This document shows, one piece after another, positions 15,199 through 23,446 of a stretch of 23,674 nt of DNA. Origin of the DNA: a virus. The stretch spans positions 1-23,674 of the IMG/VR virus record IMGVR_UViG_3300046782_000066; one strand, given 5' to 3'. Below the pieces are notes generated by a model. It saw only the letters and a list, made by a program, of their open reading frames with translations. It was not told the DNA's origin and did no database searches. Positions within the stretch are counted from its first letter, which is position 1. Every line of letters begins with the position of its first letter. A program made the translations under genes and the position numbers.

Positions 15199-16533
15199 TT
15201 ATCTCCGCTCGTACTGTCTCATGATATTCTCGAACGCATAGCAAAAGAAATATTCTTCTGCATCACTGCAATGTCCGTACTTCTCGAACTTAGCTCCAGT
15301 GATTTTATTCTCTTCCTTCTCCTTGAACTTCTTACCGTCTGCTCCCTCCTTCAAATACAGATAGTCATTGATTGTGTTCTTGCACTTCGGATGAATCAAA
15401 TAGTCTATCGCTGTATTGCCTCTGAACAAATCATCCATGAAGTCTTTCCTTTTCAGTACTGGGGGATTTGCTTTGTTCACTCTGAACGAACCGTTGTTCA
15501 GTTTCCTTCTGCAAACATTTTCTACAATGTCGTAGTCATGCTTCACCTCATCCTCCGTCATTGTGTTTCCTTTCTTGCTGGTAGCATCTCCATAGTAGAA
15601 CAATCCTGCATTATGGTCTGCATAGTCTCGCATGAATCTCTCGCACACATATCGGGTCTTATTCAACGGGTGAGGTAAGCATATTTCATCAATCTGTGTC
15701 ACTCTCACTCTCTTGGTCTCTGGCATGAACCTGATCTGATTCACAAGCAGCGTCATGTATGGATTCACGTTCATATCGAACGTCAGATGAATCGCACTGT
15801 CTGGCTCGTACAATGCTTTGTCACTCACATGCACCATCGCATCGAACGCTGGGTAGAACTCCATCCCTGTTCTTAGCAGCCCCCATTTGCCTTCCTTGTA
15901 GATACGCTGATTGTGCGGAGACATTCTGTTCAGCTTCTCTTCATACTCTCGCTGGTCTATGTGCTGATTATCCTTGTACGTTGTATGCACATACTTTCCA
16001 TTCTTCAACGGCTTATCAAATAGCTCCTTCTTCACCCAATGCTCTTCATTGATTGGATTGAAGCTGGCAAACAACTGACGGGTCTCTCCTGCTTCTCCAC
16101 GCAACCTTAAATCGAACTGCTCAAAGTCTTCATAGTCGAACTCCGTTATCTCTTCCATCCAGATGTCTGTTGGCTTCTGAATAGACTTAATCTTTTCTGG
16201 GTCGTCCATTCCTGCTGCCAGCATACTGTTGCCATTCACGCACATGATGTCCATGCTCGATTCTTTCACATGGAACAATGGCTGCAACTTATAGCTCTCG
16301 ATTAAATCTTTGAACAACAAGAATTGACTATCGCGTATATCTACCGCTTGCTTTCTGCTGAACACTAATCTATATCTTCTGCTCCCCAAGCATTTGATAA
16401 GATTCTTCTGGGCGATAAAGAAGCTCTTTCCGCTTCCTCCTCCTCCCCAGTAAATTTCATAAGGATTGTTTGTATTGATGTACGGTCGGTAAACTGGGTT
16501 TACTTTCTCTTTCTTAAAAGTAATGTTTACCAT
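15199..16533 (-). CDS. terL: Terminase large subunit
   Basis: A 444-residue packaging motor with ATPase and nuclease parts. The Walker A motif GGGGSGKS is at residues 30-37, Walker B with catalytic acidics (DIWMEE) at 123-128, and the coupling motif SFNP at 157-160. The C-terminal RNase H-like nuclease has its metal-binding acidics in F-D-M-N (D253), G-D-A-T-S (D316) and S-D-A-E-E-Y (D424). The length and motif spacing fit the Terminase_3 / PBSX-type family. The protein should pump DNA into procapsids through the portal and cut concatemers. It has its own terminator-promoter junction upstream and is separated by two genes from the small subunit. Confidence 0.96.
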   Translation of the reverse strand: MVNITFKKEKVNPVYRPYINTNNPYEIYWGGGGSGKSFFIAQKNLIKCLGSRRYRLVFSRKQAVDIRDSQFLLFKDLIESYKLQPLFHVKESSMDIMCVNGNSMLAAGMDDPEKIKSIQKPTDIWMEEITEFDYEDFEQFDLRLRGEAGETRQLFASFNPINEEHWVKKELFDKPLKNGKYVHTTYKDNQHIDQREYEEKLNRMSPHNQRIYKEGKWGLLRTGMEFYPAFDAMVHVSDKALYEPDSAIHLTFDMNVNPYMTLLVNQIRFMPETKRVRVTQIDEICLPHPLNKTRYVCERFMRDYADHNAGLFYYGDATSKKGNTMTEDEVKHDYDIVENVCRRKLNNGSFRVNKANPPVLKRKDFMDDLFRGNTAIDYLIHPKCKNTINDYLYLKEGADGKKFKEKEENKITGAKFEKYGHCSDAEEYFFCYAFENIMRQYERR

Positions 16534-18646: not shown

Positions 18647-18852
18647 AAATAAACCATTCCATACTCACTGTTGCCATCCTCCTTCTCCGTATCCAGAACC
18701 CATTTATCTTCTGCTGGCTTGCCACTACTTTCATTAATCATTCTACTTGCATCCAAGTAACTCACGAACTTTCTCTCAAGAATAATCCATGTCGGGAACA
18801 TTGAATACCAAATGATTCTTACTCCCTGCCAAAAATATCTTATCACTTCCAT
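18619..18852 (-). CDS. Small protein with hydrophobic N-terminus
   Basis: A 77-residue protein, start MEVIRYFWQGVRIIWYSMF, with an aromatic and hydrophobic N-terminal 25 residues that could anchor it to the membrane, then a polar region and a basic end (CRKKRRLQ). The ATG overlaps the preceding stop as TGATG. No family recognised. The segment looks more like an amphipathic or reentrant helix than a clear transmembrane span. Confidence 0.65.
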   Translation of the reverse strand: MEVIRYFWQGVRIIWYSMFPTWIILERKFVSYLDASRMINESSGKPAEDKWVLDTEKEDGNSEYGMVYLCRKKRRLQ

Positions 18853-19589
18853 CAGCCTATTATTTTAACATTGTTCACTGGCTCTATCGGCTCTCCTTCG
18901 CTGGTCGTTGAATACAAAATGCCATCCCCTTCAACATCTGCATATATCCGTCCGTCCTTCGCCTTATAGCACTTCCTGCTGAACTCATCCTCTCCTATGT
19001 AGAACACTTCTACCTGCTCACTGGCTGCATTCTCTATCGCCTGCAACCTGTCTATCTCTGCTGCAATCAATGCTCCTGCTACTTGAAGACGATGAATTTT
19101 ATTCTGGTCTCCAGTCAGCTTGTTTTCAAGTCCCCAAACATTTAATCCAGATTGAAAATCTCCACCATAGTCAGAGACAACTTTTGAGTTTGTTCCATTT
19201 GTCGCAAGTATTGCAGCCACTAATCGAAGCTCACCATGATGATGCCCCCAGTCATGTGCAGAGTGATAGCCATGCTTACTTATCTGCTCCTGTCTTTCCA
19301 TTGCAATCAACTCCACTCCTGTTGCCTGCCTTGTATCACGATTCTCTTCTGGCTCTTCTACTGACAATCCAACTGGAGGCATACCACTTCCAACTATCAT
19401 CAGCCTTATCCGTTTCGATTGCCGGAGCTTCTCTTCGTCTCCTGCTTCCAGTTCCCACACACTTTCAAACTGTGGGTACTTTTCAAGATACATGCTCTTC
19501 TTACTGGGCAATGCTCCGCACTCTGCATCAGTCATGTTTGCAGGTTTATGCATCACAATGTTCTGGTCTTTAAATTCTACTGGTTTCAT
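18852..19589 (-). CDS. Phage accessory protein with ERQ...HG / AGALIAAEIDRL domain
   Basis: A 245-residue protein. Residues about 92-185 carry a pattern I know from many phage proteins of unknown function: E-L-I-A-M-E-R-Q-E-Q-I-S-K-H-G, then H-D-x-x-H-H-H-G-E-L-x-x-A-A, a variable loop, and L-Q-V-A-G-A-L-I-A-A-E-I-D-R-L. The spaced acidic and His residues recall helical nucleotide pyrophosphohydrolases such as MazG-like enzymes, but I cannot claim that activity. Residues 1-90 and 190-245 flank this domain; the latter has beta-prone sequence. The start at 19589 follows a 68-base gap with no obvious promoter or hairpin. Confidence 0.72.
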   Translation of the reverse strand: MKPVEFKDQNIVMHKPANMTDAECGALPSKKSMYLEKYPQFESVWELEAGDEEKLRQSKRIRLMIVGSGMPPVGLSVEEPEENRDTRQATGVELIAMERQEQISKHGYHSAHDWGHHHGELRLVAAILATNGTNSKVVSDYGGDFQSGLNVWGLENKLTGDQNKIHRLQVAGALIAAEIDRLQAIENAASEQVEVFYIGEDEFSRKCYKAKDGRIYADVEGDGILYSTTSEGEPIEPVNNVKIIG

Positions 19590-20059: not shown

Positions 20060-20533
20060 TTAATTATTTACAATAAAATCTATGCATGGTTTTAATGTTT
20101 CTTTATAAAATCTCATCTCCTGCTTTGGCAGCTTTTCATTCTCTGGAGTGATTATGAAATAATATCTGTCATTGAACTCAAACACCTCTGAACCTTTCGG
20201 TATCGGCAAATGATAATTATATCCGAACTCTCGATTCAGGTGTCCAACAATAACTGGTTTCGGCTCTTCTTCCTGCTCCTGCTCTTTCAGCCATACCACT
20301 GATTCATTCGGCTGGCTTTCCATTATAGTGCTACATGCTCCGTTTATTTGCAACTGCCAGCCAATACCATTATAATAAAACGTACCGTGACTTTCTTCAC
20401 TCCAAGTATAATTCGGCAATGTTCCTTCTGGCTTGGTCTCTAATCTGTGCAATGCAAAGTAGTGCTTCGTTCTGTCTGCTGGGAACGCTTCTGTCGTCTT
20501 GACTTCTGTATATGTTTTCATAATTTTTTCCAA
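20060..20533 (-). CDS. Hypothetical protein following the glycosyltransferase
   Basis: A 157-residue protein with no domain I recognise. It is acidic in the middle (EQEQEEEPKP) and beta-rich at both ends with many aromatics (FYYNGIGWQLQI, DRYYFIITPE). The ATG at 20533 overlaps the glycosyltransferase stop by 16 bases; a second ATG lies four codons in. The overlap puts it in the same operon as the modification genes, so a helper role is possible but unproven. Confidence 0.7.
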   Translation of the reverse strand: MEKIMKTYTEVKTTEAFPADRTKHYFALHRLETKPEGTLPNYTWSEESHGTFYYNGIGWQLQINGACSTIMESQPNESVVWLKEQEQEEEPKPVIVGHLNREFGYNYHLPIPKGSEVFEFNDRYYFIITPENEKLPKQEMRFYKETLKPCIDFIVNN

Positions 20534-21255
20534 TTAAATCTCACCTCTGTTTGTCCATGCTCAACAACTTTTCTCACCGCCTTATCTCCGTACTTCGCTA
20601 TAAGGTAATCGGCTGCAACTTCCATGTTCTCATTCTGCTTGTATATTTCTGCTGCACCTCCGTCTCTACTTTTCATCTTATGTGCAAACTGATAAGCATA
20701 TATGCAAGCAGTTCTGAATCCTGCCTTAATCAATCTGGCAGACATATCCCAGTCATTGAAGATTTTTAATTCTTTATCATATCCTCCTGCTTTTGACAAT
20801 TGGTATGTATTGTTTAATACCATGCACCATGCACCGATGTTTTCTTTTGTAACTCCTGTTTTGTGCATCCAATTATGTCCAGCGAAACTCACCATCACCT
20901 GTCCATAGTTGTGTTCATTCATCTGCTCCTTCGCACTCTGATAAATTTCTTCTATCGTGCATTTGCTGTTGTCTCTTCTCTTCCATCCAAGAACATCATC
21001 ATCAACAAACATATACTCACTGAACTGTTTAATCTGTGCGAACTCAAGCATTGAATTTAACATATAAGCGAACCCCATATTGTCCGCTCCAAGTCTCACA
21101 ATCTGATACTGCTTGCCGTACATCATTTTGTACTGGTCATAATCCTGTGGCTCTACAAACAAAAAAGCTCCTATCAGGAGCTTGCTCATTGGAAAGTTTA
21201 TTCTGTTCTTACTACCAATGAATATCGGCAGTACGGTCTCTTCAATCTGCTGCAT
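20518..21255 (-). CDS. GT-A glycosyltransferase, TET-associated (TAGT) type candidate
   Basis: A 245-residue protein. The N-terminal Rossmann-like half (VLPIFIGSKNRI, then YQIVRLGADNMG) leads to F-V-D-D-D-V (D85-D87), the metal- and nucleotide-sugar-binding DxD-type motif of GT-A enzymes. Further on are G-G-Y-D (157-160), F-N-D-W-D-M-S-A-R (166-174), and H-K-M-K-S-R-D-G-G (192-200), a His/Ser/Gly-Gly pattern I associate with TET-associated glycosyltransferases of phages. It would transfer a sugar to a hydroxylated base in DNA. The ATG overlaps the dioxygenase gene by 14 bases, which supports a joint role. Sugar and base are unknown; protein glycosylation remains an alternative. Confidence 0.82.
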   Translation of the reverse strand: MQQIEETVLPIFIGSKNRINFPMSKLLIGAFLFVEPQDYDQYKMMYGKQYQIVRLGADNMGFAYMLNSMLEFAQIKQFSEYMFVDDDVLGWKRRDNSKCTIEEIYQSAKEQMNEHNYGQVMVSFAGHNWMHKTGVTKENIGAWCMVLNNTYQLSKAGGYDKELKIFNDWDMSARLIKAGFRTACIYAYQFAHKMKSRDGGAAEIYKQNENMEVAADYLIAKYGDKAVRKVVEHGQTEVRFNWKKL

Positions 21256-22057
21256 GTTTCAATCTCTTTTTTTCTCTGGTTAGTTTTACTTCTCTTATTC
21301 TTTGCTTCTCCTGCTCTACTGGCAGACACTTCCACATCTGCTGCAACGTATAATACACAACGCTGTATCGGTAGCTCTGCTCACTCAAGTATTTTATCGG
21401 TGTCACTCCATGCATGATTAACTGCCCATCGAAAATCACCAGCGTATTGTTGGCAACCTCAAGTGTGATGCCGTATTCTGGAACTGCAAGATTGCCTCCT
21501 TCAACATCATGCTTCATCACAATCATATTGCTCATTACTCCTTTGAAGTTACCTGCATCATGATGATATTTCAGCACACTGTTCTTATTTACAATGCCGG
21601 ACGTAAACACTGAATTAGGAATCCTCCAAGCTGGCAGCACCTTTTCTGTTACTACCTGCTCATGTGCTACATAAGTGTCTGGAAAGTATTTTTTATAATA
21701 CTTACTTACAAGCTCTGCTTGCCTGCAAATTATAGAATGAGGTTTCGGAAACTCTCTGCTCATGCTTGTAGCTGTGCAATAGTCTCTGCGAACCGTTAGC
21801 TTCGGACTATACCCGAATATCGTACTCGTACTTTGCAACCCCAGCGTTCGCTTGCCTGTATTAAACTTCACATGCTGCACTGCCCATAATAAATCTCTTA
21901 GGTCTTCATCCAGTCTCTTATAAAGTATCACTGGCTTTCCTTCGTCTGTTATCAGACAGTCAAAGTCAATCAGGCTTTCACAATCAGAAGGCATCGCACT
22001 CCGTTTCAGAAACAGCTTATCCTCTATTGGCTTTCTTCTTAGTTCGATTCGTTTCAT
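21242..22057 (-). CDS. 2-oxoglutarate/Fe(II) dioxygenase, TET/JBP-like DNA base hydroxylase
   Basis: A 271-residue protein. The double-stranded beta-helix core shows the iron ligands H165-x-D167 (in K-Y-H-H-D-A-G-N) and H216 (in L-I-M-H-G-V), and the 2-oxoglutarate-binding R230 (in S-Y-R-Y-S-V-V). The run before the HxD (SGIVNKNSVLKYHHD) and the N-M-I-V...G-G-N-L segment resemble TET/JBP enzymes, which oxidise methyl groups of 5-methylcytosine or thymine in DNA. Phage members are known to work with glycosyltransferases. The gene overlaps the second ParB-like gene by 41 bases and the glycosyltransferase by 14. No DNA methyltransferase is visible here, so the substrate is open: thymine, or 5mC made by an enzyme outside the window. 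Confidence 0.85.
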   Translation of the reverse strand: MKRIELRRKPIEDKLFLKRSAMPSDCESLIDFDCLITDEGKPVILYKRLDEDLRDLLWAVQHVKFNTGKRTLGLQSTSTIFGYSPKLTVRRDYCTATSMSREFPKPHSIICRQAELVSKYYKKYFPDTYVAHEQVVTEKVLPAWRIPNSVFTSGIVNKNSVLKYHHDAGNFKGVMSNMIVMKHDVEGGNLAVPEYGITLEVANNTLVIFDGQLIMHGVTPIKYLSEQSYRYSVVYYTLQQMWKCLPVEQEKQRIREVKLTREKKRLKHAAD

Positions 22058-22643
22058 AATATGACAATAAACTCAATAACACTTCTGTTGCATTGCTCAC
22101 CTTCTCTCTCTTCATTATGTCGAATATTCTCTCCATCACAAAGTTGTACCTCTCCAAGTCGTAGTACATAACAATCTGCTTCCTGTTTCCTTCGATATAT
22201 GTTTCAAGCTGCGTAGTGATTAAGTTCTTATCCGTGTGAACTGTCGTATCCACAAATTCATTATCATGGAATCCCCAGCTTAACAAGTCCTTCTGTCCGA
22301 AATATTTATTCAGTTTCTCATCATCCCAGATGCCATAATCAACATTACTCAACACATTGTAACGCTTTCTTTCGTCTTCTGTCAAAGCCCTGTTAGGCAC
22401 TCTTACGTCAATCAGCGTAGCTCCTTTACTACGCTGCTTCAAATCTCTAATCCTGTCATGCCCAGCAATGATTGTATTGTCAATATCAATCACTGGTATC
22501 TCTGCCAGTCCGAATTTAATCAATGATGCACGTAGATTCTTTTTCTGTTCATCGCTGCTCTTGCGAGGATTACCTTTCATCTCTATCAACTGATTCGGCT
22601 TTCGCTTTTCAGTCAGCCAAATTAGTTTCTTCATAGAACGCAA
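22017..22643 (-). CDS. ParB/Srx-fold protein, second of tandem pair
   Basis: A 208-residue protein. The ParB/sulfiredoxin-type core is at about 15-125: G-N-P-R-K near 24, a helix, G-L-A-E-I-P-V-I-D, then the nucleotide-binding signature I-I-A-G-H-D-R at 58-64 and V-R-V-P-N-R with L-T-E-D-E-R. The C-terminal part (about 148-200; K-Q-I-V, N-A-T-E-V-L-L-S-L-L-S-Y-Y-E) is shared with the gene before it, showing that the pair arose by duplication. ParB/Srx domains bind CTP or ATP, and some have nuclease or kinase activity. Here a role in DNA modification or its site choice is inferred from the operon. It overlaps the neighbours by 35 and 41 bases. Confidence 0.83.
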   Translation of the reverse strand: MRSMKKLIWLTEKRKPNQLIEMKGNPRKSSDEQKKNLRASLIKFGLAEIPVIDIDNTIIAGHDRIRDLKQRSKGATLIDVRVPNRALTEDERKRYNVLSNVDYGIWDDEKLNKYFGQKDLLSWGFHDNEFVDTTVHTDKNLITTQLETYIEGNRKQIVMYYDLERYNFVMERIFDIMKREKVSNATEVLLSLLSYYETNRTKKKANRG

Positions 22644-23232
22644 TCAGTTTATCAAGTACCTCACTCATATTTTCACAACCTTCTTTCTTTCCTACTTCAA
22701 TCATTCTCCTCATCGCACTATCGAATGCTTCACCTTCGAAATTAAATACAATCTGCTTAATTGAATTTTGCATGAAATGTTCTTTCAGGCTCATATCATC
22801 TGCTGGCTCATATCCTTCTCCTGCTCCGTCAGCCTCCATCGGTTTGAATCCAAACTCTTGCAATGCATCCGCTCCTATAAACTCACTCATCAGCGTCATA
22901 TCAAAGTCTCCCTTATTCTTATTGCTCCGTATGTTATACTCCTTCTCTTCTTTTGGAGTAAGCTGCCTATTAGGAACTCTACAATCAATCCAAACATCAT
23001 CACCGTGTAGCTTCCTTTCTACTGTGATTCTCTGGTGTCCAGCAATAATTGTAAAATCTTTATTTACTACTGGGATTTCAACGAAGCCAAATTCTTTTAT
23101 TGAATTTTCCAGAAGCTCTGCCTTCATCGCTGATAGTCTTCTTGGATTGTACGCTGCTTCTTTCAGGTCTCCGATACGAACTTGAACTGTACGCCACTCA
23201 ATCTTTTTTTTCTTCTCTGCCTTCTGTTTCAT
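22609..23232 (-). CDS. ParB/Srx-fold protein, first of tandem pair
   Basis: A 207-residue protein. A basic N-terminal tip precedes the core V-Q-V-R-I-G-D-L-K with Y-N-P-R-R (28-32), S-I-K-E-F-G-F-V-E-I-P-V-V, I-I-A-G-H-Q-R (62-68) and C-R-V-P-N-R, followed by N-x-R-S-N-K-N-K-G. This is the ParB/Srx layout often fused to DNA methyltransferases in phages, but here there is no methyltransferase part. The C-terminal region (about 155-200; K-Q-I-V-F-N-F, N-M-S-E-V-L-D-K-L-I-A-F-Y-E) is alike in the following paralogue. Gly/Glu/Asp-rich linker near 134-146. It overlaps the small gene upstream by 35 bases. Confidence 0.83.
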   Translation of the reverse strand: MKQKAEKKKKIEWRTVQVRIGDLKEAAYNPRRLSAMKAELLENSIKEFGFVEIPVVNKDFTIIAGHQRITVERKLHGDDVWIDCRVPNRQLTPKEEKEYNIRSNKNKGDFDMTLMSEFIGADALQEFGFKPMEADGAGEGYEPADDMSLKEHFMQNSIKQIVFNFEGEAFDSAMRRMIEVGKKEGCENMSEVLDKLIAFYEETNLAD

Positions 23233-23446
23233 TGCTTCTTTGCTCTTCGAACAACTCCTTCCTCATCCTATCGAAAGTGGTTTCAAGCGAACGAACACTT
23301 TCATGCTCGATATGGAATTGTCTAAGAAAGTTTTTTATTGCTTGCTGCTTTGTTACTGATGGTAAGTTTGTAATAATTCCATAGACGAATCCGAACATCA
23401 ATTTCTCAACGCTATCTCTCTTATGGAATTTAGTACACGGCTTCAC
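23198..23446 (-). CDS. Small helical protein upstream of the ParB-like pair
   Basis: An 82-residue protein starting with GTG at 23446 (no better ATG before the conserved-looking part). It reads as a helical bundle, with F-G-F-V-Y-G-I-I-T then PSVTKQQAIKNFLRQFHIE, which could be a helix-turn-helix, and a charged C-terminal helix. I do not recognise a family. The start is seven bases after the previous stop and the end overlaps the first ParB-like gene by 35 bases, so it belongs to the modification operon. A regulator or DNA-binding partner is possible. Confidence 0.65.
   Translation of the reverse strand: MKPCTKFHKRDSVEKLMFGFVYGIITNLPSVTKQQAIKNFLRQFHIEHESVRSLETTFDRMRKELFEEQRSNETEGREEKKD

Follow-up and report, generated by a model that had tools for sequence, protein, structure and literature searches.

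In the formation of kinetoplastid base J (JBP1/2 and JGT), thymine in DNA is converted to 5-hydroxymethyluracil (hmU) by a TET/JBP enzyme and then glycosylated; a 5hmdU DNA kinase also works on 5hmdU in DNA (PMC6449724). T-even phages glucosylate 5-hydroxymethylcytosine (hmC), and their TET-associated glycosyltransferase (TAGT) acts on glucosyl-hmC, adding glucose (PMC13216743). The gene set of the actinobacteriophage Tonitrus has been called a probable thymidine-hypermodification system (PMC11955845). ParB folds in phages are frequently fused to DNA methyltransferases (PMC12704722).

The DNA analysed here is a stretch of 23,674 nucleotides from an uncultured phage (IMG/VR record IMGVR_UViG_3300046782_000066; hereafter the window), for which a Megablast search against phages gave no match. 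Judging from sequence and structural models, its overlapping genes for two ParB-fold proteins, a TET/JBP dioxygenase and a TAGT make up a probable phage DNA-hypermodification operon.

Gene organisation of the cassette

The cassette and the adjacent features relevant to it are as follows.

22609..23232, minus strand: ParB-a, 207 aa, ParB/Srx fold
22017..22643, minus strand: ParB-b, second ParB/Srx-fold protein, tandem paralogue of ParB-a; TTG start as listed
21242..22057, minus strand: TET/JBP 2-oxoglutarate/Fe(II) dioxygenase, 271 aa; predicted thymine-in-DNA hydroxylase
20518..21255, minus strand: TAGT, GT-A glycosyltransferase of the TET-associated family, 245 aa; predicted to add a sugar to the hydroxymethyl base
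23198..23446, minus strand: 82-aa protein of the ORF list, function unassigned, without a Pfam or PHROG match of weight
15199..16533, minus strand: terminase large subunit (TerL; packaging), in a BLAST cluster common to the TerL of 80 relative loci; context only

The four consecutive genes at 20518–23232, described in an earlier note as overlapping by 14–41 bases, were all found in place on the minus strand; the overlaps are 35 (ParB-a/ParB-b), 41 (ParB-b/TET) and 14 bases (TET/TAGT). Long overlaps are present at other places on the same strand, so overlap by itself is not a special feature of these genes. The co-directional 82-aa ORF overlaps ParB-a by 35 bases, and its membership of the cassette is uncertain.

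TET/JBP dioxygenase and TAGT

The dioxygenase matches PF12851 with E=4.2e-17 and 62.3 bits, against a curated cut-off of 34.9. The HxD...H iron ligands and the arginine for 2-oxoglutarate of TET/JBP dioxygenases are all present; the corresponding residues H165, D167, H216 and R230, from which the enzyme had initially been recognised, show no variation among 16 aligned relatives or across 96 TET rows. In a Foldseek comparison of the predicted fold with the PDB, the first 26 matches were CcTet, CMD1, NgTET1 and TET2, with AlkB and PHD2 far weaker, which places the protein with TET-family DNA enzymes; a protein-hydroxylase identity was rejected. The label 'queuine tRNA-ribosyltransferase' attached to PHROG and RefSeq homologues is a misnomer; those proteins carry the TET/JBP domain and its active site. 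The 271-aa protein has one oxygenase domain and no further Pfam match, the J-binding domain of JBP1 being absent. One scan of uncultured phages yielded 428 matching TET loci, and a TET scan of genome contigs yielded one, on a contig of an Ignavibacteria MAG.

The glycosyltransferase exceeds the curated cut-off of PF20691 by a narrow margin (E=1.2e-6; 29.1 versus 27.5 bits) and matches phrog_842 (E=1.9e-17). D85/D86 of the D85-D86-D87 motif and G199/G200 are conserved, with H192 preceding the two glycines, in agreement with the earlier description of a TET-associated GT-A enzyme with an Asp motif and a His...Gly-Gly motif. As profile matches, the PF12851, PF20691 and PHROG ParB assignments of the cassette proteins are far beyond chance. 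TAGT is present in 38 of the 50 viral records of the TET set. Its closest relative (L111, 43%) adjoins a radical-SAM-like gene in a 35.7-kb record that has no TET; TAGT is therefore not tied to TET.

ParB-fold pair

ParB-a matches PHROG 620 (E=6.4e-24) and possesses an NPR motif, a Box-II-like G-H-x-R motif and a C-terminal KQIV helical module. ParB-b matches PHROG 498/620 (E about 1e-18 to 2e-18) and is 34% identical to ParB-a (BLASTP 2e-28); an in-frame ATG is located at 22634, nine bases inside its TTG start. A profile of this family found ParB structures in the PDB at 5.7e-9, and the AF2 model of ParB-a (pLDDT 83) matched ParB/Noc/KorB first and then sulfiredoxin (Srx), so that the ParB/Srx fold proposed earlier is backed by PHROG, PDB-profile and model matches. 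Neither protein reaches the cut-off of Pfam ParB_N (PF02195); homologues in two relative loci (L004 and L111) do exceed it. The profile match of the ~207-aa proteins to solved ParBs ends at the N-terminal domain, leaving a short C-terminal module.

The fold, together with the NPR and GHxR motifs of the NTP pocket seen in the alignment, would also suit proteins that genuinely serve the partition or copy control of a plasmid-like prophage and lie upstream of the TET gene by chance. This explanation is very improbable, as no HTH or ParB dimerisation domain was recognised, a ParB accompanies TET in 83/83 loci, beside the terminase, and the methyltransferase fusions of phage ParB folds mentioned above point to DNA modification. 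ParB is annotated next to TET-like proteins in actinophages as well. The earlier note had considered the pairing unusual and the ParBs to stand in place of a methyltransferase. Neither view is supported: with a ParB just upstream of TET in every assessable relative, this TET lineage has ParB as a constant partner, and a pair also occurs in Arthrobacter phage Ottawa.

Neighbourhood and exchange of partners

A glycosyltransferase lies within three genes of TET in 81/87 relative loci, and TerL is found close downstream, within six genes, in 76/87. ParB, glycosyltransferase, TET and terminase thus form a conserved module, the first three recurring as a set beside the packaging genes of many viruses.

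On the 41-kb contig G001, which belongs to this phage, genes for three glycosyltransferase-like proteins, an FkbM methyltransferase and a pyruvyl-transferase lie just outside the window, upstream. Because these genes adjoin the window, the sugar on DNA may be an elaborated glycan. FkbM, pyruvyl-transferase, GT2 and GT-B genes are also typical of surface polysaccharide pathways, and many relatives have GT32 and O-methyltransferase genes upstream; the dioxygenase product might then stay unglycosylated, with the glycosyltransferase genes acting on the surface of the phage or the host through capsule or LPS changes. Such a role is improbable, considering that the core glycosyltransferase belongs to the TET-associated family and directly adjoins TET in nearly all relatives, that the genes overlap and that the cassette adjoins the terminase, not tail or lysis genes.

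In some loci of the same TET lineage, the place of the glycosyltransferase is taken by ADDT and a kinase homologous to Ploopntkinase3 (L095, L096 and L098) or by the kinase alone (L036). The match of this kinase to PF18751 falls below the cut-off in L036 and L098; a BLAST search for it in the phage collection gave no match, and it was found by profile comparison. Phages Kozie, Tonitrus, Prince and Ottawa combine TET with ADDT and/or this kinase, Kozie having a DAO oxidase as well. Among the 50 records, the kinase is present in G013, G045 and G047 and ADDT in the latter two; none of the three has TAGT, and the kinase/ADDT genes and TAGT are mutually exclusive in this set. When partners are mapped on the TET tree, which has long branches and short-search support and was used solely for the number of partner swaps, at least three changes are needed, so TET stays while its partner is exchanged.

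Substrate of the dioxygenase

The window contains no C5-methyltransferase, as had been noticed earlier, and the search recommended then for the rest of the genome found none above the cut-off in the 41-kb contig, which also lacks 5hmU DNA kinase (5-HMUDK) and ADDT. Nor was there one above the cut-off in the 50 viral records, which are fragments of unknown completeness (one sub-threshold fragment occurs in G038), or in 10 isolate genomes, among them Bolt007 and Prairie, which have a ParB-TET-GT-deacetylase arrangement. A thymidylate-synthase-type hydroxymethylase was absent from the 50 records; a match to such an enzyme occurs in Caulobacter phage Cr30.

On these gene contents, hmU is clearly favoured over hmC as the predicted dioxygenase product, because hmU-pathway kinase/ADDT genes replace the glycosyltransferase in the same TET lineage and because no C5-methyltransferase exceeds the cut-off in the 60 records. 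Of the original proposal of glycosylated hmC or hmU, the hydroxylation–glycosylation cassette and hmU are retained; hmC no longer ranks as an equal option.

The TET enzyme could instead act on 5-methylcytosine made by a host methyltransferase or an unseen phage one, with TAGT glycosylating the resulting hmC in the manner of T-even phages or of C5-methyltransferase/TET/GT systems. The acceptor of TAGT could indeed be cytosine-derived, since the T-even member of PF20691 acts on glucosyl-hmC; the structural neighbours NgTET1, TET2 and CcTet oxidise 5-methylcytosine, a host could supply this base, and a phage methyltransferase gene may lie outside the fragmentary viral records. This alternative is nevertheless unlikely, given the methyltransferase searches and the swapping of hmU-pathway genes into the same operon position. 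Residue 238 also speaks against it: the base-adjacent His of TET2 and NgTET1 aligns with Leu in the TET lineage of the window (92/96 rows, kinase-linked enzymes included). Enzymes with Arg at this position (Nonlabens, Cr30 and DLP6) differ and may have another substrate.

Proposed pathway

The TET/JBP dioxygenase and TAGT probably make a base-J-like glycosyl-hmU in phage DNA. After replication, the dioxygenase would oxidise the 5-methyl group of thymine to give hmU, and TAGT would move a sugar onto its hydroxyl. More speculatively, the two ParBs might be NTP-dependent DNA-binding or clamp subunits that position the enzymes on the DNA of the phage, and the upstream glycosyltransferases, FkbM methyltransferase and pyruvyl-transferase might extend the sugar and modify it further. 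The modification would likely shield the DNA from host restriction or CRISPR nucleases. A prokaryotic base-J pathway with an elaborated glycan, in which the ParBs, as tandem clamps, would bring a thymine hydroxylase and TAGT to phage DNA near packaging and the additional enzymes would assemble a methylated, pyruvylated oligosaccharide on hmU, is a tentative and rather doubtful extension of this scheme.

Should glycosyl-hmU be the product of the cassette, the base J chemistry of trypanosomes is in use among bacterial viruses too, in a module abundant among uncultured phages. Isolates of the three-gene unit are available (Bolt007 and Prairie, and Ottawa as the kinase counterpart) for the study of thymine hydroxylation in DNA, DNA glycosylation and the role of ParB in DNA modification.

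Comparison with known systems

C5-methyltransferase/TET/GT systems differ in their methyltransferase, since none exceeds the cut-off in the window, its 41-kb contig or relatives. In Nonlabens phage P12024L, which gave the sole TAGT match of the phage collection, TET and TAGT are adjacent; its TET has Arg instead of Leu at position 238, an N6/N4-type methyltransferase follows and BLAST found no adjacent ParB. T-even glucosylation (alpha-GT, beta-GT and TAGT/beta-glucosyl-HMC-alpha-GT) shares the TAGT family PF20691/phrog_842, but T-even phages synthesise their hmC at the nucleotide stage, before replication, whereas the TET of the window is predicted to act on DNA. The predicted order of thymine hydroxylation and glycosylation is that of kinetoplastid base J; unlike JBP1, the phage enzyme has no J-binding domain, and the phage has ParB partners as well as additional genes for sugars.

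Arthrobacter phages Bolt007 and Prairie have the order ParB-TET-GT with a TAGT-like glycosyltransferase (22.7 bits, below the cut-off) and, like the window, no C5-methyltransferase. They differ in having a single ParB, a PIG-L GlcNAc-type deacetylase that follows, a TET ~31% identical to that of the window and a location not beside the terminase. The ParB-TET-ADDT-kinase genes of Tonitrus, Prince and Ottawa, likewise without a C5-methyltransferase, place ParB upstream of a TET/JBP homologue near the terminase; Ottawa, with the order ParB-ParB-TET, is the kinase counterpart of the cassette. These phages are expected to phosphorylate the hydroxymethyl group and to couple it to an amine or amino acid, whereas the window has TAGT in place of kinase and ADDT.

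The probable modification cassette

The four genes proposed in the earlier note as a DNA hypermodification operon are consecutive on the minus strand and overlap by 35, 41 and 14 bases:

22609-23232, minus strand, ParB-a
22017-22643, minus strand, ParB-b
21242-22057, minus strand, TET/JBP dioxygenase
20518-21255, minus strand, TET-associated glycosyltransferase (TAGT)

In Pfam, the dioxygenase hits Tet_JBP (4.2e-17) and the glycosyltransferase hits TAGT (29.1 bits, cut-off 27.5). ParB-a and ParB-b share 34% identity, and both match ParB families of PHROG (6e-24 and 2e-18); neither reaches a match to Pfam ParB_N. The profile of their family matches solved ParBs at 5.7e-9, and the AlphaFold2 model of ParB-a (pLDDT 83) matches ParB, Noc and KorB, followed by sulfiredoxin.

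The dioxygenase residues singled out earlier (H165-x-D167, H216 and R230) are invariant across 96 TET rows, and the first 26 PDB matches of its model (pLDDT 77) are CcTet, CMD1, NgTET1 and TET2, with AlkB and PHD2 far behind. Grouping with protein hydroxylases is thereby ruled out; judged by sequence and model, the protein is a TET-type DNA enzyme of predicted activity. TET/JBP homologues of many actinophages and cyanophages (phrog_6059 and RefSeq records such as NC_022061) are labelled 'queuine tRNA-ribosyltransferase', apparently a misannotation. In Caulobacter phage Cr30 and Stenotrophomonas phage DLP6, the TET/JBP domains lie within proteins annotated 'SNF2 DNA repair protein', carry Arg, not Leu, at position 238 and have sliding-clamp genes nearby.

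Elsewhere in the window, the product of 18852-19589 is a 245-aa protein that weakly matches several uncharacterised phage families; by eye, its C-terminal part looks like a phage nucleotide-pyrophosphohydrolase-like domain.

Recurrence of the module

Scanning viral contigs with the TET alignment yielded 428 relatives, the best 80 of which were kept. The 87 TET loci analysed include near-identical sequences and so are not 87 independent cases. ParB is present within seven genes upstream of TET in all 83 loci extending far enough, and a glycosyltransferase (GT) within three genes in 81 of 87; in 76 of 87, the terminase large subunit follows at most six genes downstream. Most keep the strict order ParB-GT-TET-TerS-TerL. 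TAGT is found in 38 of 50 viral records. The ParB-GT-TET cassette is thus a recurrent module, from whose usual order the ParB-ParB-TET-TAGT arrangement of the window's phage deviates. The ParB pair, previously considered unusual, loses that standing given the constant upstream ParB; the ParBs of Arthrobacter phage Ottawa are likewise paired, and contig L036 has additional copies. This constancy, together with phage proteins that fuse a ParB fold to a DNA methyltransferase (PMC12704722), suggests that the ParB-fold protein would act as a DNA-placing or NTP-switch subunit, the least certain step.

The sole genome_contigs match, Ignavibacteria MAG contig JAAFHM010000017.1, carries a ParB-TAGT-like-TET module and is probably a prophage or a binned phage. 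The closest TAGT relative (43%; L111:8113-10696) stands in the order ParB-radical-SAM-like-TAGT, the radical-SAM match being below cut-off; its 35.7-kb record has no TET/JBP match, and the base there may be prepared by another enzyme.

Predicted substrate

The earlier note left the product open between glycosylated hmC and hmU (5-hydroxymethyluracil). Three lines of sequence evidence, circumstantial given fragmentary viral records and a host that could supply 5mC, point to thymine, favouring hmU over hmC.

The first is an exchange of partners. Between ParB and TET, loci L095, L096 and L098 carry ADDT (PF18724, over cut-off), an FAD oxidase-like gene and a kinase, and L036 a kinase. This kinase matches the Ploopntkinase3 proteins of Kozie, Ottawa, Tonitrus and Prince (hhalign probability 98.4%). 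Tonitrus, Prince and Ottawa combine ParB-TET with such a kinase, the first two also with ADDT; Kozie has TET, ADDT, DAO and kinase, its record holding no gene upstream of TET. The Tonitrus genes have been described as a probable system for thymidine hypermodification (PMC11955845), and 5hmdU in DNA is phosphorylated by 5hmdU DNA kinase (PMC6449724). Among the 50 viral records, those with kinase or ADDT (G013, G045, G047) all lack TAGT, and no TAGT-bearing record has either; at least three partner changes are needed on the TET tree. Second, no C5-methyltransferase over cut-off was found in the 50 records and 10 isolate genomes, and no thymidylate-synthase-type hydroxymethylase in the 50 records. 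Third, 92 of 96 TET rows, kinase-linked ones included, have Leu at position 238; the aligned residue of TET2 and NgTET1 is a His, taken to contact 5mC.

Sugar genes

A 41.4-kb contig of the same phage (G001; 99.99% identity over 19.8 kb) reaches beyond the window. The 6.1 kb upstream of ParB-a on this contig hold genes for a GT2 (6e-16), a GT-B (2e-6), an FkbM methyltransferase (4e-19) and a polysaccharide pyruvyl-transferase (1e-11). A further gene there encodes a 294-aa protein that has no GT match in Pfam but looks glycosyltransferase-like at its start by eye. Further GT32, GT-B, GT2-like or O-methyltransferase genes lie upstream in 30 relatives; FkbM methyltransferase genes occur between ParB and TET in L008 and cyanophage MED4-117, and directly after TET in L015. 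In Bolt007 and Prairie, the order ParB-TET-GT-PIG-L deacetylase suggests an aminosugar. Given these neighbours, the sugar on the base may be extended and decorated, provided that they act on DNA; the upstream genes could instead work on surface glycans.

Outside the window, G001 also contains an isonitrile-synthase-like gene by sequence (L016:6309-7235; DIT1_PvcA, PF05141, 1e-60; solved isonitrile synthase, 1.6e-23); the search turned up no other viral contig with such a gene.

Relation to known systems

TET-GT operons were reportedly predicted in phages in a 2013 study and are said to have been tested for cytosine in a 2021 study. The predicted route, T -> hmU -> glycosyl-hmU, resembles base J synthesis, although the cassette dioxygenase lacks the J-binding domain of JBP1. 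Actinophage thymidine hypermodification shares the predicted hydroxylation step, and T-even phages have a glycosyltransferase of the cassette's family.
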